Below are positions 1,330 through 26,789 of a DNA stretch of 28,130 bases, one piece after another. The translations under genes were made by a program, and so were the position numbers. The DNA comes from a virus. The stretch's first letter is position 1. Each line of letters opens with the position of its first letter. A model generated the notes under the pieces. That model did no database searches, was not told where the DNA came from, and worked only from the letters and a program-made list of their open reading frames with translations. Location of the stretch: positions 1 to 28,130 of the IMG/VR virus record IMGVR_UViG_3300031626_000014. One strand, given 5' to 3'.

Positions 1330-2808
1330 ATGAATACAATTAGACCTTCACAGGCTTATATTGATGAATCAAGAGCTTCTGCTCTTTTAGAAAAGTGGGC
1401 TCCAGTTCTGGATTACACATCTAAGAGTGTTGCTCCAATTGAAGATAGCCATACTCGTTTGAACACAGCTATGTTACTTGAAAACCAAGAAGCATGGTGT
1501 TTGAGAGAAGCTGGACCTAACTATGCTGGTAGCGGTAACGTTGCTGGTCGTGATGGTGCACTCGGTAATGCTACTTCAATCGGTGCTGCTGGTGGAGTTG
1601 CTGGTACCCCTGGTACTGACAGCTATGCAAGTGGTGACTATCGTCTACCAAAGATCTTGATTCCAATGATTAGACGTACTTTTCCCGAGTTAATTACAAA
1701 TGAAATCGTTGGTGTTCAACCAATGGCTGGTCCAGTTGGCCTTGCATTTGCTCTTCGTTATCGTTACAGTGGTGAAACACTTGGTGATGGTATCGATGGT
1801 AAGTCAGCTGCAGGTAATGCACCTGCAGGTCAATCAGGCGTCCTTGCTAATGCAAATGGCACTGAAGCTGGTTACCAAGAGCTTAAGACAGCTTACACAG
1901 GTACATCTGCTGGATTCTTATCCGGTAACGGTGAATTCGCTTTTAACGAAGCGGATGATGGTGTAGCAGCTCTTCTTAGAAACTTCGAAGTAACGGGTAA
2001 TATCCCTACTATGGAAGTTTCTTTCGAGAAGACAGCAGTTGAAGCAGGCACACGTCGCTTAGGCGCACGTTGGTCGGTTGAACTTGAACAAGATCTCAAA
2101 AACATGAATGGTATCGATATCGATACTGAATTGACAAACGCAATGTCGTATGAAATTCAGGCTGAAATCGACCGTGAAATGCTTATGAGAATGATTCAAG
2201 TTTCTCTTAACGCTGGCAGAGGAACAGGATTCTCCACATGGAGCCCTGCTTCTGCTGATGGCCGTTGGTTAGTAGAACGTAACCGCGACTTCTATCAAAG
2301 ATTAATCGTAGAAGCTAATCGTATCGCAGTGAGAAATCGCCGCGGTGCAGCTAACTTCATCGTTGCAACACCTCGTGTTTGCGCTATCTTGGAAATGCTC
2401 CCTGAATTCCAGTGGGTACCAGTCCAAGGTAATGTTAATACACAACCTGTAGGTGTTGGAAAGATCGGTAATCTTGGTGGTCGTTTCAACGTATATAGGG
2501 ACACACGCACAGAAGGTCAAACGATTGGTAACAGTCTTAATACCTCTGCAAATAATGCCCCAGAATACGCGTTGTTAGGTTATAAAGGTCCAGAGTTTTA
2601 CGACACTGGTATCATCTACTGCCCTTACATTCCAGTAATGGTACAGAGAACAATTGGACCGAATGACTTCGCGCCACGTGTAGGCTTGCTTACACGTTAT
2701 GGTGTCGTAGACAATATCTTCGGAGCAAATCTCTACTATCACGTTATCATTGTAACAGGACTCGGCGAAGCGTTTACACCAGGTACTAACTCGGTGTACT
2801 TCGGCTAA
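1330..2808 (+). CDS. 23: Major capsid protein gp23
   Basis: The 492-residue product is a T4 gp23-type major capsid protein (T4 gp23 is 521 residues). It forms the hexamers of the head shell. Typical gp23 stretches include the RTFPELITNEIVGVQPM region (about 114-132), the RWSVELEQDLKNMNGIDID region (about 247-265) and a C-terminal GPNDFAPRVGLLTRYGV region. A likely gp21 processing site is L58-R59-E60 followed by Ala61, close to the T4 cleavage after Glu65; the mature protein would start at about residue 61. Codon use differs from the neighbours, with more GGT, CGT, ATC and TTC and visibly higher GC, as expected for the most abundant virion protein. A strong terminator follows. Confidence 0.95.
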   Translation: MNTIRPSQAYIDESRASALLEKWAPVLDYTSKSVAPIEDSHTRLNTAMLLENQEAWCLREAGPNYAGSGNVAGRDGALGNATSIGAAGGVAGTPGTDSYASGDYRLPKILIPMIRRTFPELITNEIVGVQPMAGPVGLAFALRYRYSGETLGDGIDGKSAAGNAPAGQSGVLANANGTEAGYQELKTAYTGTSAGFLSGNGEFAFNEADDGVAALLRNFEVTGNIPTMEVSFEKTAVEAGTRRLGARWSVELEQDLKNMNGIDIDTELTNAMSYEIQAEIDREMLMRMIQVSLNAGRGTGFSTWSPASADGRWLVERNRDFYQRLIVEANRIAVRNRRGAANFIVATPRVCAILEMLPEFQWVPVQGNVNTQPVGVGKIGNLGGRFNVYRDTRTEGQTIGNSLNTSANNAPEYALLGYKGPEFYDTGIIYCPYIPVMVQRTIGPNDFAPRVGLLTRYGVVDNIFGANLYYHVIIVTGLGEAFTPGTNSVYFG

Positions 2809-2835
2809 TCTTGATATAAGATCTACAAACAGCTT

Positions 2836-2864
2836 GAGACCTGGTTCATTACGAGCCAGGTCTC
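2836..2864 (+). terminator. Intrinsic terminator after gene 23
   Basis: The arms GAGACCTGGTTC and GAGCCAGGTCTC can form a 12-bp stem with one G-U pair and a 5-nt ATTAC loop, followed by ATTTTGTTT. It lies 28 nt after the gp23 stop. On the other strand the stem is not followed by a T-run, so it acts mainly in the + direction. Confidence 0.85.
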
Positions 2865-2889
2865 ATTTTGTTTAATTATAAAATGCTAC

Positions 2890-2945: not shown

Positions 2946-3875
2946 TTATTGCTTAGAAGTCTTAATATGTACAGCTTCAGGATCAATTAGATTAGCAGCA
3001 TACTTCTCAATTAGATCTTGACTTGAAGCTCTTACAGGGTTAATATCGATACCACCTCTACGAGCATATAAACACATTACTAATAGCTCAGATGGATCAA
3101 AAGCATCTTTCAATCTCTTATAGAAGCATTCGCATATCTCTTCATGAAAATGGCACTCATCTCTATACGATACAACATAGTTCTTAATACTATGAGCATC
3201 AATAGCAGTCTTTGATTTAATATATATAAATACATCTCCCCAGTCAGGCTGAGAAGTAACACGGCAATTACTCTTTAGTAGACCTGAATAGAACCTTTGT
3301 TCTAATTCTCTATCGCGACTAATACCTTCTAACAAACTAGGATCTTCTGTATATTGTGTATATATAAAATCCTTATGATCTTCAAGTAGATCTACATTTT
3401 GATAATCTTCAATATCCCACGCATTATTAGGACTATCAACTTTATTATTTACCATATCACCGTCCTGGAATTTAACTTGTACATCGGTCTGTAATATTCT
3501 ACTTAGATCTTTACTTGCAGTATTTTCAAATGCAAGAACAGCTTTATCTTTATCAGCAGCCATTTTAGTCATATTAAAGGAGTTGAAGTATAACTTAATA
3601 CTTTTACTTTCAACAATATACTTACTACTACAAGAGTAAATACACTTTACAACACCAGTTACAGGTCGCCCATTATCAAGAAGGAATGAACACTCATATG
3701 CATTCCATGTATCAGATCCTACGAAAGGTAAATCATCATCGAATATATTTAAATATACTCGATTATTACTCCGAGGTTCTCTTACAAGCAATCCAGAATC
3801 ATACGCACTCTTATATTGAGACGTTTGACCTAAATGCTTACTAATTCTACTATTATCTAATTCTTTATTTGCCAT
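2946..3875 (-). CDS. queF: QueF, NADPH-dependent 7-cyano-7-deazaguanine (preQ0) reductase
   Basis: QueF reduces the nitrile of preQ0 to the aminomethyl group of preQ1. The 309-residue product is a complete long-form (two-domain, E. coli-like, 282 aa) enzyme. The QueF signature ESKSIKLY is at 89-96. The catalytic cysteine is Cys204 in SNCRVTSQPDWG, with the proton donor Asp211 seven residues later, the same spacing as E. coli Cys190/Asp197. The substrate-binding His/Glu are in HFHEE (242-246), and RRGGIDINP lies at 272-280. It is the last gene of a three-gene minus-strand operon, and its start overlaps the end of the kinase gene by 11 nt. Next to a DpdA-like gene, the product is more likely used for DNA modification than for tRNA queuosine. 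Confidence 0.93.
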   Translation of the reverse strand: MANKELDNSRISKHLGQTSQYKSAYDSGLLVREPRSNNRVYLNIFDDDLPFVGSDTWNAYECSFLLDNGRPVTGVVKCIYSCSSKYIVESKSIKLYFNSFNMTKMAADKDKAVLAFENTASKDLSRILQTDVQVKFQDGDMVNNKVDSPNNAWDIEDYQNVDLLEDHKDFIYTQYTEDPSLLEGISRDRELEQRFYSGLLKSNCRVTSQPDWGDVFIYIKSKTAIDAHSIKNYVVSYRDECHFHEEICECFYKRLKDAFDPSELLVMCLYARRGGIDINPVRASSQDLIEKYAANLIDPEAVHIKTSKQ

Positions 3876-4419
3876 AATTATCTACTATATTATAAATTGT
3901 TTTCATACGATTATCAACTGATCCATTCAACCTAATTACGTTTATTTCATAATGATCAATTGCTTCTTCAAATAAGTTAACTACTATATCACGGAACTCT
4001 TTATCTACGCTACGCACACCGTCATCTACTAAGGGGATGTCAGGTTCTGTATATAGTATAACATCTAATTCACCAATCAATTTCTTAAAGAGATACTCAC
4101 TATAATTATACACCTCTTTAGATACTTTCTTCATATGATATTGGTATGTAGTATAAATAAATCCATCTAAAATACACCTATCTAATACTACATCTTTACC
4201 TTTAAAATCGAAATAATTATACAAATGACTATTAATAGTTAGTAATTGGGTAAATTCATCACCATCTTGATTAATATCCAAGTTATATTTCTTTTTTAAC
4301 CCTCTAGTTATTTCCGGGACAAAATTAAACTTACGAAATCTTTCTTCAGTTTGCAGTTTTGCGAGTAAAGTAGATTTACCTGTACTTTGAGCTCCTGTAA
4401 AACTAATTACCATGACCAA
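3865..4419 (-). CDS. P-loop kinase-like NTP-binding protein (AAA_28/NadR-kinase type)
   Basis: The 184-residue product has a Walker A motif GAQSTGKST (9-17), an Asp-Arg pair in VVLDRCILDG (77-86) as in nucleoside/nucleotide kinases, and a lid-like DDGVRSVDKEFRD segment (132-144). This layout fits the small P-loop kinases grouped with the NadR ribosylnicotinamide kinase domain (AAA_28). The substrate cannot be read from the sequence. The start overlaps the dpdA stop by 17 nt and the end overlaps queF by 11 nt, which implies translational coupling with the two 7-deazaguanine genes. It could phosphorylate a nucleoside of that pathway, or be an independent nucleotide-salvage enzyme. ATG at 4419 was chosen; a second in-frame ATG lies 6 nt downstream. 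Confidence 0.7.
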   Translation of the reverse strand: MVMVISFTGAQSTGKSTLLAKLQTEERFRKFNFVPEITRGLKKKYNLDINQDGDEFTQLLTINSHLYNYFDFKGKDVVLDRCILDGFIYTTYQYHMKKVSKEVYNYSEYLFKKLIGELDVILYTEPDIPLVDDGVRSVDKEFRDIVVNLFEEAIDHYEINVIRLNGSVDNRMKTIYNIVDNYGK

Positions 4420-5194
4420 TAATATCTTTAAAACAATTAACGTTATATTCTATATCTTCCATTTGTGTATCTGTAACCTCATGATCAATTAAATCAGCTA
4501 ACATAATTGAAGGCTTTTCATTTAATCCTAGATTACCAGTATATCTAAGTTCCTTAATACCAGCCACCACCGGGTTAGAGGTATCTACTGACCTAATGGT
4601 TTTATCCCCTACGTAGTTTTTAAACTCTTTAGCAAATGAACAACCTAATAGATGGTGAGGTTTTTGATTATTCCAAATACCATCTTTCTTTAACTGTTCT
4701 ATCAATCTACGGCGACCATCACACCATCTTTCTAGTTTAGATTTACCTTTACCGGTTACAATATAATAGCTAAAGTCGAAACTAATTGCTATATAATCAG
4801 CATTTTCAGACATATAGTTATAACAATCTACTATTTCATCATATGTCTTACCTTGGATTGCACCTATCTTTAATCCAGGTAGCTTTGTATACTTATTGGT
4901 AAACTCATGAAAACTCTTAATAGTCGCATAACCGTCCTCCAATACATCTGGTACAATATAATAAGAAGGTTTTAATTCTTTAACATACTTTGCAAACTTA
5001 CCTGGTTCAAATGATTCACCAAGTTCAAAAATACTATTATCTAAGAGAACTTCTCTACCTAGTTTAACACTATTTTTAAAATAGTCATAATATTGAGGGT
5101 GAGTTTCAAATAGATGAACTAAAGCATAATCATAATCATTATACTCTTTTGATTTATCTAATATACTAATTGGACTTTCATGTGATACTAACAT
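4403..5194 (-). CDS. dpdA: DpdA-like 7-deazaguanine DNA transglycosylase (TGT superfamily)
   Basis: The 263-residue product has the landmarks of the tRNA-guanine transglycosylase fold in order. LLDNSIFELG (50-59) corresponds to LTDSGGFQ with the general acid Asp (D52). GAIQGKTYDE (111-120) corresponds to GIVQGG. HLLGCS (181-186) corresponds to YLMGVG. RSVDTSNPVV (201-210) corresponds to FDCVMPTR with the nucleophile Asp (D204). The C-terminal zinc site of tRNA-modifying TGTs (CxCxxC...H) is absent, and the protein is much shorter than bacterial Tgt (about 370-380 aa). Both features fit the phage DpdA family, which exchanges guanine for preQ0/preQ1-type bases in DNA. It is the first gene of the operon with the kinase and queF. 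ATG at 5194 directly follows two tandem TATAAT boxes. Confidence 0.8.
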   Translation of the reverse strand: MLVSHESPISILDKSKEYNDYDYALVHLFETHPQYYDYFKNSVKLGREVLLDNSIFELGESFEPGKFAKYVKELKPSYYIVPDVLEDGYATIKSFHEFTNKYTKLPGLKIGAIQGKTYDEIVDCYNYMSENADYIAISFDFSYYIVTGKGKSKLERWCDGRRRLIEQLKKDGIWNNQKPHHLLGCSFAKEFKNYVGDKTIRSVDTSNPVVAGIKELRYTGNLGLNEKPSIMLADLIDHEVTDTQMEDIEYNVNCFKDIIGHGN

Positions 5195-5228
5195 ATTATA
5201 ATTATATAGACAGAAATTGATATATCAA
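5195..5228 (-). promoter_or_regulatory. Sigma70-like promoter of the dpdA-queF operon with palindromic -35
   Basis: On the minus strand TTGATA (5223-5228), a 16-nt spacer and TATAAT (5201-5206) form a good sigma70-type promoter. A second TATAAT (5195-5200) abuts the dpdA ATG. From the first -10 box transcription would start at or next to the ATG, giving a leaderless message. The -35 lies in the 12-bp perfect palindrome TTGATATATCAA (5217-5228). Confidence 0.55.
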
Positions 5229-5235
5229 GTAAATA
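5228..5235 (+). promoter_or_regulatory. Late promoter variant for the 5241 gene
   Basis: AGTAAATA lies 5 nt before the ATG at 5241. It differs from TATAAATA at the first two or three positions but has the same spacing as the other octamers in the window. It shares the divergent 46-nt gap with the dpdA promoter. Confidence 0.35.
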
Positions 5236-5240
5236 TATAT

Positions 5241-6248
5241 ATGGCATTTGGACTTAATATAGATTTTAGTGGAATTATTGGTAGCCTTACCGGGAAGATT
5301 AGAGGTATAGTTGCTTCTAAAATAAAGGAATTATCTAATAAGGTGAAGACCACTTTAATTAATAAAGTTAATGAGGCAGCAGGTTTTAATTTAACTGGTA
5401 TGATCGGTACTAGTTTAAATTTAAATTTATCTAAATTAACTGGTGGTATTGATTTTGCAAATGCTTTAAAAGGTTTACCATTTCCTAATTTAGGTAGTTT
5501 AAATTTAAATGCTTTATATGGTATAATAGATGAAAATATTGGTGTAAATTTAAATGCTTTTACTAGCAGTATAGTTGCAAAATTTGAAAATATTAGCTTA
5601 GATGAACTTTCTTTAAATACCAAATTAACCTCTGTATTGGATACCCAATTAGATAGTATAGGTAGTGAAATAGAAGCAGGTATTATTACTGGTAAAAGTT
5701 CAATTGACGCATTAGGTAGTCTAACTAAACTTTCAAATACTAAAATAAGAGATTTTACTATTGATCCCAGTAAACAGTTAGCATTTGTCAATGATTTAGT
5801 TGAGCAACAAAAAAATAAAATATTTGATTTATCCTTTAATAGCATTCCAGAATCATCTATTTTCGATAATGAGATTAATAGTTTAAAAGAAGATAGTTTA
5901 GAAAGTTTTATAAGTACCCCTAATGCAGATTTTTCGTTTTTTGATAAAAATATTATAGATGAAGCTTCTATTTCAAAAGATGCAGTAGCTGATCAACAGC
6001 TTCAAATTACAAATATAACTGAAGTGATACCACCTGTAGCAAGAAATCTTGACATAGAAAATAGATATAATAAAGAAGAGGAAATGTTAGAGTATTTAGA
6101 AACATTTAATGATGAATTTAAAGTTGCTGATAATACCGACCCTGTACCAGTAGCACCAACACAAAGGTATGTATCTGTTCGAGATCCAGGTACCGGGGAA
6201 GTAATTGGTATTGAAGATCGGGTACAAGGGGTAATACGACCAATATGA
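5241..6248 (+). CDS. Unknown virion/baseplate-region protein with Leu-Asn repeats
   Basis: I do not recognise this 335-residue protein. The N-terminus MAFGLNIDFSGIIGSL is followed by a lysine-rich amphipathic segment, then repeated Gly-Ser-Leu-Asn-Leu-Asn motifs (around 65-115: SLNLNLSKL, LGSLNLNAL, IGVNLNAF). The rest is rich in Asp, Ser and Asn, with a proline-rich tail (PVPVAPTQ). No enzyme motif or signal peptide is seen. It is the first gene of the + strand baseplate module, 50 nt before the gp5-like gene, so a structural or assembly role is likely. ATG 5241 was preferred over a TTG at 5217 because the latter falls in the divergent promoter region, and because the -TATATATGGC- context matches the other late starts. 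Confidence 0.6.
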   Translation: MAFGLNIDFSGIIGSLTGKIRGIVASKIKELSNKVKTTLINKVNEAAGFNLTGMIGTSLNLNLSKLTGGIDFANALKGLPFPNLGSLNLNALYGIIDENIGVNLNAFTSSIVAKFENISLDELSLNTKLTSVLDTQLDSIGSEIEAGIITGKSSIDALGSLTKLSNTKIRDFTIDPSKQLAFVNDLVEQQKNKIFDLSFNSIPESSIFDNEINSLKEDSLESFISTPNADFSFFDKNIIDEASISKDAVADQQLQITNITEVIPPVARNLDIENRYNKEEEMLEYLETFNDEFKVADNTDPVPVAPTQRYVSVRDPGTGEVIGIEDRVQGVIRPI

Positions 6249-6286
6249 TTAAATTTAACATTGTAATAAGCGGTATTTAATTTAAA

Positions 6287-6294
6287 TATAAATA
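6287..6294 (+). promoter_or_regulatory. T4-type late promoter for the gp5-like gene
   Basis: A perfect TATAAATA is separated from the ATG at 6299 by only 4 nt. By the T4 spacing, transcription would begin at about the A of the ATG. Confidence 0.65.
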
Positions 6295-6298
6295 TAAT

Positions 6299-8605
6299 AT
6301 GGAAAAAGAATTTAATAGTATATATTTGGGTATAGTAGTTCAAAATAATGACCCTCAAAAAAGAGGTAGGGTTAAAGTATTTGTACCTCATTTATCACCA
6401 ACTGTATATGAAAATTGGGTAGGTGATAATAAAGATAAATTTTTTAAATCTATTGACGGTAATTTAGAGCCTATAATGGCTAAATTAAAAACTATACTAC
6501 CATGGGCTGAAGTTAGCTGTCCATTAACAAGTGAAAATACGTCCAAACGTTATAATAATTATACCAATAAAGCCACTGTATCTGATACAAATTCTTTTAA
6601 TAATTTGAGTAATGATAGTTCAGCTTCTTCTGGAGAAATATATGATCAAAGTATGTTTAGATTAAGTGATGCTTTTAGTGATAATAGTAATAATGTTAAT
6701 AATATAAATCCATATTCTTTTAATTATAAACCAAATACTTACTCTAATAAAGCAAAAGGCTCGTTTGGTATTCCAAGCGTAGGTGCACATGTATATGTAT
6801 TTTTTAGAGATGGTAATACCCAATTCCCAGTACTAATAGGTACATCATTTGGTAAAGACGATTGGCAAGGTATATACGATAATGAAGTTGATTACCCAGG
6901 TAAATATGAAAATTATGATAGTAGTTCTACTGAAGAAGATTATAACGTACAAACCTATAGGAACAAATATGTTTTAAATCAAAAAGGTGGTACTTTTGAA
7001 ATAAACAATACTGACCATAATGAAAAAATAAAATTAACCCATTATTCTGGTTCCTTTAAAGAGTTTAATAACAATACTAATTCGGAACTAGCTACTAAAA
7101 ATAATCAAAAGCTTGTAATTAATGATGAATTTAGCACCGTGAAAGGTTTTAAAAACGAATTTACGGGTAAAAATTATGACGAGGTAATCTTAAGAGATAA
7201 ATACAAAAAAATTGGTAACTTAAATGAACCTTTTTTCGATGATTGGAAGCAAGCTTTTTCAGTTATACAAGATAAAAAACAATTATTTGATATAAAGAGA
7301 GCTGAAAATAATAATATCAAATCTAATGGTGATATAATTTTAAAAGTTAATAGTATCGATCAAACCCGATCCGGTGGCTTTGCTGATTTTCCTGTAACGA
7401 AAACAAATGAATACCCTGCTGTAAATAATATAAATACATTTGCCGGGAGTGGTTACCCTAATTTAAATATTTCATCATCAGTCGCGACAGCCGGAGGGGC
7501 AGGTACACCTCTATTTGATAAAAACCTCGGTATACTGTCACTCGCTCCACCACTTGCAATTGAACCTAAAGAAGCTGCAAACTTTATTATCGGTACTACA
7601 CCCGAAGATTGGCCTAGTGAATCTGGTAAATCATTTGTTAATGGAGATGGTAAGAGTCCATCGACTCAAGACGGGGATTGGTCACCGGAAAATAAAAATT
7701 TAGGTGATGAGATTTTAGCTATACAAGCTGATTTAATGTTCAAAGAAAAGGATTTTGGTCTCGGTGGTAGTGAAATAATAGAAATAAGTAAAAATAAATT
7801 AGAAAATATTGGAACCGTAATGAATGATTACGGCAGTATAAGATTAGACCCAATTGGTAAATTAATTAATAACGAAGTACTTGTAGGTAATCAAGCCACT
7901 TATACGAATAGTGATTCAGGGCCGCTACTCGAGTATGTCGATGTTCAAGATTTACCTGGTGGTACATACAATTTAAATGTTAATAATAGATATAATGTTA
8001 TGGTAGGGGCTGGTGGTATAAATTTAAAGTCATATGGACCAACTAATATATCAGGCAGTATCACAAATATTGCAGGTCAACAAGTTAACATTGGTTCTGA
8101 AAATGAAGTTAATATAGATGCCAAAGTAATTAATATAAGTGCAGAAATTTTAAAATTACGCAATAAAAATCAAAGACAAGTTTTAGTTGATAGTGGTTTA
8201 GGGGTAAGTAAAAATGTTGTCATCGGTGGTGGTTTGTCGGTAGAGGGTGAAACATACTTACAACATGTTACTGCACCGGCAGAAACACAAATAACAAATA
8301 CTACGCAAACTTTAGGACAAACAGTGTTGGGTGAAATTATGGGAACTGTCTTGATAGCTGGTGTAACTTATCCTGTCTTAGGCAACGGCGCGCCGGATAC
8401 AATTGCAACATACCCACATACACATACGTTTCAAAATTTACCATTAACATTGACTGATTCAAATGAAAGTACTCGTATATCAGCAAAAAATCAAGGTATT
8501 AATAGTACAAATAGAGTAATTGCAACTCCTCAATTTAATACACAAAAAGATGGTATTCAAGTTGAGTCATATACATCCGAAGCAAAAGGGCTAGCCGCCC
8601 CATAG
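6299..8605 (+). CDS. 5: Baseplate hub/tail-spike protein, gp5-like, without lysozyme domain
   Basis: The N-terminus reads YLGIVVQNNDPQKRGRVKVF (about 9-28), the OB-fold start of T4 gp5-type hub proteins. The fold appears to finish after a long Asn/Ser-rich insertion at about 155-186 (FGIPSVGAHVYVFF...PVLIGTSFG). T4 gp5 is 575 aa with a lysozyme domain in the middle. This protein is 768 aa, and I see no T4-lysozyme-like catalytic region. The C-terminal half is repetitive and rich in Gly, Asn, Ile and Val (NVNNRYNVMVGAGGINLKSY and following), consistent with a trimeric beta-helix needle. A His-Thr-His motif is at 707-709. Its place ahead of the gp25 and gp6 genes supports the baseplate role. 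Confidence 0.8.
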   Translation: MEKEFNSIYLGIVVQNNDPQKRGRVKVFVPHLSPTVYENWVGDNKDKFFKSIDGNLEPIMAKLKTILPWAEVSCPLTSENTSKRYNNYTNKATVSDTNSFNNLSNDSSASSGEIYDQSMFRLSDAFSDNSNNVNNINPYSFNYKPNTYSNKAKGSFGIPSVGAHVYVFFRDGNTQFPVLIGTSFGKDDWQGIYDNEVDYPGKYENYDSSSTEEDYNVQTYRNKYVLNQKGGTFEINNTDHNEKIKLTHYSGSFKEFNNNTNSELATKNNQKLVINDEFSTVKGFKNEFTGKNYDEVILRDKYKKIGNLNEPFFDDWKQAFSVIQDKKQLFDIKRAENNNIKSNGDIILKVNSIDQTRSGGFADFPVTKTNEYPAVNNINTFAGSGYPNLNISSSVATAGGAGTPLFDKNLGILSLAPPLAIEPKEAANFIIGTTPEDWPSESGKSFVNGDGKSPSTQDGDWSPENKNLGDEILAIQADLMFKEKDFGLGGSEIIEISKNKLENIGTVMNDYGSIRLDPIGKLINNEVLVGNQATYTNSDSGPLLEYVDVQDLPGGTYNLNVNNRYNVMVGAGGINLKSYGPTNISGSITNIAGQQVNIGSENEVNIDAKVINISAEILKLRNKNQRQVLVDSGLGVSKNVVIGGGLSVEGETYLQHVTAPAETQITNTTQTLGQTVLGEIMGTVLIAGVTYPVLGNGAPDTIATYPHTHTFQNLPLTLTDSNESTRISAKNQGINSTNRVIATPQFNTQKDGIQVESYTSEAKGLAAP

Positions 8606-25188: not shown

Positions 25189-26103
25189 TTAAATCTTCTC
25201 GAGATTGACCCAGCATGCAAACGCATTAATCTCTTTATCTAATACAAATACGTCTTTATACATATGATCTGAAATAGTAACTATATATTGACGTTTTTTA
25301 TTATCATCTAAACTAGAAGCGTATACATAATTTAAGTACTGCTTCATTAAGTTATGGTAATCACCCTGAAACTCGTTTTCATTTTCAATTAGATACTTTC
25401 TTAGCTTTAAAGAATCTTTAGATATAATGTGCTTATGTATAACAATAACTATATCTTTACTATCTACACTATGGTCAATTGTAAAGATATTACTAATAGT
25501 AGCTTTTTGAATACTATTTAATACTTTACGAATATCAGGGTAACTTTGTTTAATTACATTCACAAAATTAGGTTTCTGATCAGTTTCAATCTTAATACCT
25601 TCCTGCTTCACTATTTCAACAACTCTTTTAACTACATCATCAAACGGAGGCATTAAGTCGAAGAATTGTGTTCTACTTTGAATAGCAGGTATAATTTTAT
25701 GCTTATAATTTGCTGTAAGTATAAACCGAGTCATACCACTATATTCTTCCATTGTATTACGTAGTGCGCGTTGCCCGTCGAGGGTAATACCATCAGCCTC
25801 ATCTAAGATGACTACTTTATGTTTCCCATCAAGAGACTTAGTCTGACTAAAGCCAACTACCTTAGAGCGTATCGTATCAATACCATTTTCATCAGAAGCA
25901 TTAATATAAAGGTATTGACACTGTAAAATATCATTTACTAATATTCTAGCTAATGTAGTTTTACCTAAACCAGGTGTACCAACAAAAAGCAGATTTGGTA
26001 TCTCTTCAGTAATAGATTCAAAATACTTTCTATTACTATCAGATAATACCAAATCTGATAACGTTTTAGGTCTATACTTTTCTACGTATAATTTATTAAA
26101 CAT
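25189..26103 (-). CDS. 44: Sliding-clamp loader ATPase subunit, gp44-like
   Basis: The 304-residue product is an AAA+ clamp-loader subunit of the RFC/gp44 type (T4 gp44 is 319 aa). It loads the gp45 sliding clamp for replication and, in T4, for late transcription. Motifs: EKYRPKTLSDLV (8-19), Walker A GTPGLGKTT (42-50), Walker B VVILDEAD (97-104), a sensor 1 region FILTANYKHKI and the SRC-box position IQSRTQF (141-147), where Thr replaces the usual Cys. The C-terminal collar region is present. The start overlaps the upstream 35-codon gene by 1 nt (TAATG). The small subunit gp62 and clamp gp45 are not adjacent in this window. Confidence 0.92.
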   Translation of the reverse strand: MFNKLYVEKYRPKTLSDLVLSDSNRKYFESITEEIPNLLFVGTPGLGKTTLARILVNDILQCQYLYINASDENGIDTIRSKVVGFSQTKSLDGKHKVVILDEADGITLDGQRALRNTMEEYSGMTRFILTANYKHKIIPAIQSRTQFFDLMPPFDDVVKRVVEIVKQEGIKIETDQKPNFVNVIKQSYPDIRKVLNSIQKATISNIFTIDHSVDSKDIVIVIHKHIISKDSLKLRKYLIENENEFQGDYHNLMKQYLNYVYASSLDDNKKRQYIVTISDHMYKDVFVLDKEINAFACWVNLEKI

Positions 26104-26210
26104 TATTTTTTCTTTTTTGATGGCTTTGTAACAGTTACTGTTACCGTCTTTCTCACCTTCGCATTACCGACTCTTCTTTCGGTTATCTTTTGTCTTGTTA
26201 CTTTTCCCAT
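26103..26210 (-). CDS. Tiny basic protein (35 aa) overlapping its neighbour
   Basis: ATG at 26210 and TAA at 26103-26105 encode MGKVTRQKITERRVGNAKVR followed by a Thr-Val repeat (TVTVTVT) and a KPSKKKK end. The stop overlaps the clamp-loader ATG (TAATG), which would couple translation. The 5' end overlaps the 52-codon gene by 47 nt in another frame. A TATAAT box lies 5 nt before its ATG, the same arrangement as the dut and dpdA starts. It could be a nucleic-acid-binding peptide or chance coding in A-rich DNA. Confidence 0.4.
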   Translation of the reverse strand: MGKVTRQKITERRVGNAKVRKTVTVTVTKPSKKKK

Positions 26211-26322
26211 AATTAATTATATCAGAGTTCCTTTTTTTATTACCACCCCAGTCAATACCATCGTAAGAATCTCCGAACTTCTTCAAACTATGACCTTTTC
26301 GCCATTTATCTCCTTTACCCAT
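26164..26322 (-). CDS. Small basic hypothetical protein (52 aa)
   Basis: The ATG overlaps the dUTPase stop (TAATG at 26320-26324), and TAA is at 26164-26166. The product starts MGKGDKWRKGHSLKKFGDSY and continues DGIDWGGNKKRNSD, then a Lys/Arg/Asn-rich tail. Short proteins beginning GDKWRK are familiar from T4-like phages, where they are of unknown function. No domain is recognised. It is translationally coupled to dut and partly overlapped by the 35-codon gene. Confidence 0.6.
   Translation of the reverse strand: MGKGDKWRKGHSLKKFGDSYDGIDWGGNKKRNSDIINYGKSNKTKDNRKKSR
26216..26221 (-). promoter_or_regulatory. TATAAT box before the 35-aa gene
   Basis: TATAAT on the minus strand ends 5 nt before the ATG at 26210. 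No good -35 is visible, so an independent promoter is doubtful. Confidence 0.25.
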
Positions 26323-26789
26323 TACTTACCAGAGGAACCGAAACCTGCATCTCCACGTTGAGCTTCTTCAACACTATCAGACCACTCAATAGTTGTATCA
26401 TAAATTTTTTCAATTTTGATCTGAGCTACTTTATCACCTTTTTCGAATACATACTTTTCATCATTAAAATTATACATCTTAACTGCGCAATCCCCTCGAT
26501 AACCATTATCCACTTCACCTAAATGCGGTTGTAAATTATGTTTAAACCCAAGACCTGACTTTGGTTTGATTACGAAACCGTAACCTGGAGTTATATATGC
26601 TACTGTAATACCTACAGGTACAACACCGCTGGATATTTTAACATTACCTACTGCATCTGATTTACTTGGTCTAATAGTAGTACCTTGAACAGCATACAAA
26701 TCAAAGCAATTATCCCCATTATGAGCTTTAGTAGGTAGTTTAGCATCTGGATGCGTCTTAACAAATTTAATTATAACTTTTTCTTCCAT
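26322..26789 (-). CDS. dut: dUTPase (deoxyuridine 5'-triphosphate nucleotidohydrolase)
   Basis: The product hydrolyses dUTP to dUMP and pyrophosphate, keeping uracil out of DNA and feeding thymidylate synthesis. The 155-residue trimeric-type dUTPase has all five motifs in order: NCFDLYA (27-33), PKSGLG (76-81), LGEVDNGYRGDC (90-101, catalytic Asp94), GDKVAQI (118-124) and RGDAGFGSSG (145-154). The length is normal for the family. It is the first gene of the minus-strand nucleotide/replication operon (dut, 52 aa, 35 aa, clamp loader). ATG 26789 is preceded by AGG 5 nt upstream and by a sigma70-like promoter whose predicted start is at the ATG. Confidence 0.93.
   Translation of the reverse strand: MEEKVIIKFVKTHPDAKLPTKAHNGDNCFDLYAVQGTTIRPSKSDAVGNVKISSGVVPVGITVAYITPGYGFVIKPKSGLGFKHNLQPHLGEVDNGYRGDCAVKMYNFNDEKYVFEKGDKVAQIKIEKIYDTTIEWSDSVEEAQRGDAGFGSSGK

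Follow-up and report, generated by a model that had tools for sequence, protein, structure and literature searches.

A three-gene cassette between gene 23 and gp5

The window, that is, the whole stretch of DNA analysed (positions 1 to 28,130 of IMG/VR record IMGVR_UViG_3300031626_000014), belongs to a low-GC T4-like phage so far seen just as environmental sequence. Positions 2946-5194 of its minus strand hold a cassette of three co-transcribed genes. Their products are a TGT-like protein of 263 aa, a P-loop kinase and a QueF of the long form. These genes and the features around them are:

1330-2808, plus strand: gene 23-like major head protein, conserved flank (phrog_138, 6e-85)
2835-2865, plus strand: intrinsic terminator, 13-pair stem with T tail, 3' of gene 23 and between the convergent gp23 and queF
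2946-3875, minus strand: queF, predicted long-form preQ0 reductase, 309 aa (QueF_N, QueF, TIGR03138, V. cholerae QueF structure)
3865-4413, minus strand: P-loop nucleoside/nucleotide kinase, AAA_28, NadR-kinase/thymidylate-kinase-like (Pfam, profile matches, gene linkage)
4403-5194, minus strand: dpdA, predicted short TGT-fold DNA guanine transglycosylase, DpdA3-like, 263 aa (fold, invariant residues, homologues)
5201-5228, minus strand: promoter-like TTGATA-16-TATAAT, 11/12, just upstream of dpdA; such matches are no commoner than chance in this AT-rich stretch
5217-6248: orf between dpdA and the gp5-like gene
6299-8605, plus strand: gp5-like baseplate hub/tail lysozyme, the other conserved flank (phrog_430, 2e-14; synteny)

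The three overlapping minus-strand genes of the preliminary description are present, as is the terminator it placed after gene 23. Adjacent cassette ORFs overlap by ~11 bases. The kinase ORF extends over 3865-4419 (184 aa) if translation begins at a TTG; homologues begin at the ATG at 4413, which is the likely start, with the TTG at 4419 as an alternative. Matches to QueF_N, QueF, AAA_28 and PHROG 19058, together with dN/dS values of 0.03-0.21 for all three genes versus their relatives, argue that these ORFs are not due to chance, and all three are under strong purifying selection. An Rfam scan of the window revealed no element, and hence no preQ1 riboswitch there. The window shows no depletion of GATC, which points neither way. 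At the far end, a T4-like clamp loader (phrog_168) and a dUTPase (phrog_135) are encoded on the minus strand (25189-26789).

The arrangement is highly conserved. In 103/103 IMG/VR loci that extend 2 kb downstream of dpdA, that gene is followed by the kinase gene and queF, these loci being related rather than independent. In 62 loci where both flanks can be seen, some with a formyltransferase variant, the order is gp5, cassette, gp23, and a 185-kb relative contig (G002) has the same flanking genes, with 84% identity for DpdA and 92% for QueF. The cassette had been taken for a later insertion into the head/tail core. Occupancy of the same site in the 62 loci and in G002 speaks against this; the cassette is an old resident of the clade. 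Copies in host genomes are confined to four MAG contigs, possibly reflecting phage contamination. In formyltransferase-type contigs L038, L039, L042 and L044, ~6.5 kb separates dpdA from formyltransferase-kinase-queF.

Predicted functions of the three proteins

Searches of Pfam, NCBIfam and PDB sequences with the 263-aa protein returned no match, and its family, PHROG 19058 (1e-63), has no annotated function. Prediction from the single sequence gave a pLDDT of only 34.5, and an AF2 model built from an alignment of 39 sequences was used instead (pLDDT 92.5, pTM 0.90). This model is a TIM barrel of the type found in the TGT/DpdA superfamily. Every PDB match in the Foldseek listing is a tRNA-guanine transglycosylase (E 1e-8 to 1e-7), and VIA-align scored the model against archaeosine TGT (1iq8) at Z 17.9 and against the solved bacterial DNA preQ0 insertase DpdA (7ui4) at Z 17.3, each over ~230 residues. 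The structural check called for in the preliminary description thus yields a TGT barrel at high confidence. Comparison by hhalign with the single sequences of E. coli TGT or CAjan DpdA showed no significant match, so the link to TGT rests on fold and motifs. The isoelectric point (~5.2) does not discriminate, because E. coli TGT is likewise acidic.

Each TGT landmark noted earlier can be found in the sequence: D52 (in LDNS), D204 (in VDTSNP), GAIQGK and HLLGCS, along with the absence of the CxCxxC...H zinc site of tRNA TGT. D52, D204, a third aspartate (D83) and HxLG at 181-184 (HLLG) are invariant in the 39 sequences. They are also kept in homologues of 23-26% identity encoded by phages of Bacillus, Weizmannia, Cellulophaga and Chryseobacterium, and the invariance spans six phage lineages. 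Motif order and fold predict that D52 sits where TGT has the aspartate of TDSGG, and that D204 occupies the position of the nucleophile. Invariance of D204, D52 and D83 is what would be expected of a catalytic Asp nucleophile and Asp acid/base. The protein shares 48% identity with gp056 of Campylobacter phage CP220, which we take to be DpdA3, and both belong to PHROG 19058. Judging from these sequences, the 263-aa protein fits best in the short DpdA3 class. Cui et al. (NAR, 2023) reportedly gave the name DpdA3 to the Campylobacter phage protein, as a class permitting complete replacement.

The 309-aa protein contains both QueF halves (Pfam QueF_N 1e-30, QueF 4e-21), matches the V. cholerae QueF structure (6e-40), and keeps the Cys/Asp catalytic pair (C204, D211) as well as ESKS, FHEE (243-246) and RRGG. 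The long-form QueF with Cys204/Asp211 reported earlier is therefore borne out by the sequence. TIGR03138 scores 236.8 bits (3e-70) against an equivalog cut-off of 293.45, which is a curated score rather than a biochemical feature. With the Pfam domains well above cut-off and that of TIGR03138 missed, we file the protein in the QueF family, as a putative preQ0 reductase. QueF and QueF-L are hard to separate by sequence, and phage QueF homologues accompany dPreQ1 in the DNA of Dp-1 and HVTV-1 (PMC6884629).

The kinase matches Pfam AAA_28 (4e-15; 56.8 bits versus a cut-off of 27), and has the Walker A region (GAQSTGKS), DR motif and DGxRS lid of that family. Ten residues are invariant in 23 sequences (G8, G13, K14, T16, R80, D84, D132, G133, R135 and S136). 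Its profile is about equidistant from NadR ribosylnicotinamide kinase (3e-6) and thymidylate kinase (4e-6). The NadR equivalog score is 41 versus 341 bits, and the similarity covers the kinase domain only. A kinase gene is present in every relative of the cassette examined with enough sequence. Conversely, among the best 80 loci from a search with the kinase profile, all 66 of the 66 newly fetched carry a dpdA homologue; kinases scoring below these 80 may occur elsewhere. Remote kinase relatives (~28%) occur in Streptomyces phages, where the one neighbourhood read has no cassette. In four remoter phages, BSTP12 (Bacillus), Youna2 (Weizmannia), phiST (Cellulophaga) and MA9V-3 (Chryseobacterium), a P-loop protein of another family is encoded directly upstream of the short TGT-like gene. 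This recurring pairing of a TGT-like gene with a P-loop gene is the most informative result beyond the preliminary description.

One way to account for the pairing is base exchange by the TGT-fold enzyme on a free deoxynucleotide (e.g. dGMP), with the product then phosphorylated by the kinase and incorporated by the polymerase. Such a route would yield complete replacement without acting on DNA. It would fit the linkage of dpdA and kinase in all 103 loci and the 66 kinase loci, the different P-loop proteins adjoining the TGT-like gene in the four remoter phages, and the nucleotide pyrophosphohydrolase encoded nearby in immuto and phiST. However, enzymes that remove dGTP are expected from other whole-genome base-replacement systems (compare dZ phages), and the large contigs of the clade contain no HD or MazG/PRA-PH gene for dGTP removal, which weakens the idea. 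To our knowledge, all TGT-fold exchangers act on polymers, and the CP220 study reportedly saw no dADG phosphate in nucleotide pools. We consider this route unlikely for the cassette. The corresponding generalization, that short TGT-fold enzymes paired with an obligate kinase swap bases on free deoxynucleotides and the kinase yields the polymerase substrate, is if anything slightly more doubtful. If true, base swapping at the nucleotide level would add a reaction new to the TGT fold and would explain complete guanine replacement.

Supply of preQ0 and predicted fate of preQ1

Genes for preQ0 synthesis were thought to lie outside the window or in the host. In relatives, they are found elsewhere in the contigs. 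G002 carries FolE2 (1e-72; 69677-70729, L156:9677-10729), QueD, QueC and a radical SAM protein similar to QueE (PHROG QueE, 2e-43), and a 71.5-kb contig with 96% DpdA identity likewise has QueC. Seven further large contigs have the QueD-PhoH-QueE block in full or in part, and of these 5/7 carry FolE2 and 2/7 FolE1; in all, phage FolE2 (GTP cyclohydrolase IB) takes the place of FolE1 in six large contigs of the clade. Dependence on the host for preQ0, considered when relatives appeared to have no folE, was dropped once the ORF list proved to contain FolE2. Because near relatives encode FolE2, QueD, QueE and QueC elsewhere, this phage too probably supplies preQ0 itself rather than relying on the host alone.

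In three relatives (L156, i.e. G002 60001-80000, at 4404-6675; L251; L255), queE is followed by genes for a pair of SpeD-like SAM decarboxylases and for a spermidine synthase, and in G002 the speD, speD2, speE block overlaps queE. In G015, which is without spe genes, queE is joined directly to the gene that follows speE in G002. A link of the spe genes to base decoration is possible. Separately, conservation in the clade extends to another, longer P-loop protein resembling thymidylate kinase (PHROG 2107; G002 53553-54317; also L252, L253, L256 and L257), which is encoded a few kb from queE in several contigs.

The explanation we favour, with a probability of roughly 0.68, is that the cassette makes preQ1 from phage preQ0 and exchanges it for guanine in phage DNA. 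It draws on the fold, the residues, the gene linkage, the pathway in relatives and the homology with a protein from a phage whose DNA is fully modified. PreQ0 would be produced from GTP by FolE2, QueD, QueE and QueC encoded elsewhere, as they are in relatives. QueF, given its family and intact residues, would reduce free preQ0 to preQ1. The fold and residues of the TGT-like protein suggest that it would cleave guanine's glycosidic bond in DNA, D204 acting as the nucleophile and D52 as the acid/base, after which preQ1 would be joined to the covalent sugar intermediate and guanine released. The Gpt-like phosphoribosyltransferase of G002 could salvage the released guanine. As for the kinase, we propose that it acts as an obligate partner on a nucleoside or nucleotide of the pathway. 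The resulting dPreQ1-rich DNA would be expected to resist restriction. Replacement of dG is probably extensive, and possibly occurs everywhere, because the enzyme's class has a Campylobacter member with 100% dG replacement; the extent is in this sense borrowed from CP220. Counting against this explanation are the insignificant hhalign comparison with E. coli TGT and CAjan DpdA, the ever-present kinase, which a plain DNA-level swap leaves unexplained, and the score of QueF below the NCBIfam equivalog cut-off. The earlier proposal that the phage carries preQ1 or a derivative is supported by the fold, the residues and the homologues in 7-deazaguanine phages, while the identity of the base and its extent are what we infer from them.

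The base in DNA could instead be a further derivative, for example formyl-preQ1, dG+ or an aminopropyl adduct, rather than dPreQ1. The formyltransferase gene between dpdA and kinase in immuto and a sister group, the difficulty of telling QueF from QueF-L by sequence (PMC6884629), and the presence of speD, speD2 and speE after queE in three relatives are all compatible with this. On the other hand, G002 shows no formyltransferase match, unlike the immuto-type cassettes, ESKS and RRGG are intact in QueF, G015 has no spe genes, and the score of SpeE is that of an ordinary spermidine synthase. We regard a derivative as improbable. Far less probable still is that the cassette raises a queuosine precursor for host or phage tRNA and has no role in DNA modification. 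QueF and the preQ0 genes are common to the queuosine pathway, but the TGT-fold protein is without the zinc site of tRNA TGT and its relatives occur in phages with modified DNA.

If exchange of preQ1 into DNA is correct, a large environmental clade of T4-like phages joins those expected to have 7-deazaguanine DNA, probably dPreQ1, and virions of the clade should resist many restriction enzymes. The occurrence of the kinase in every relative, and in Campylobacter phages without any dG, points to a missing step in total guanine replacement, a directly testable question.

Comparison with known systems

Bacterial DpdA (PDB 7ui4) and tRNA TGT resemble the phage protein in their TGT barrel (Z ~17-18 over ~230 residues) and, by motif order, in the positions of the catalytic aspartates. 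They differ in that identity is 10-14% and the phage protein is much shorter, without the zinc domain. Phages known to have both a QueF-family protein and dPreQ1 in their DNA share that protein with the cassette, whereas they had a different DpdA or none in the 2019 analysis, which describes no kinase (PMC6884629).

Among isolates, the nearest homologues of the TGT-like protein come from Flavobacterium phage immuto (50%) and from Campylobacter Firehammervirus phages, CP220 among them (46-48%). In CP220 and CPt10, 100% of dG is replaced by dADG (PMC8306585); the 2019 grouping placed the Campylobacter phages with phages without any DpdA (PMC6884629). The dADG system of CP220 and other Firehammervirus phages (gp056, gp057) is similar to the cassette in its short TGT-fold homologue, with a kinase homologue directly downstream, and in having preQ0 genes elsewhere in the genome. 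Unlike the cassette, it has no QueF adjoining dpdA, and the phage matches to the cassette QueF do not include CP220. This fits with CP220 carrying an amide, as expected if QueF decides between amide and preQ1. Also unlike the cassette, CP220 uses FolE1 rather than FolE2 and has an extra HD-domain plus P-loop gene directly upstream of the dpdA homologue (L003 8868-9899).

Flavobacterium phage vB_FspM_immuto differs from the cassette in having a formyltransferase between dpdA and kinase, and in encoding FolE1, QueD, QueE and a pyrophosphohydrolase inside the cluster, whereas the window's closest relatives lack the formyltransferase and have a dispersed FolE2 pathway. Nonetheless, its dpdA, kinase and queF lie in the same order (50, 35 and 45% identity), and its DpdA and QueF are annotated as such.
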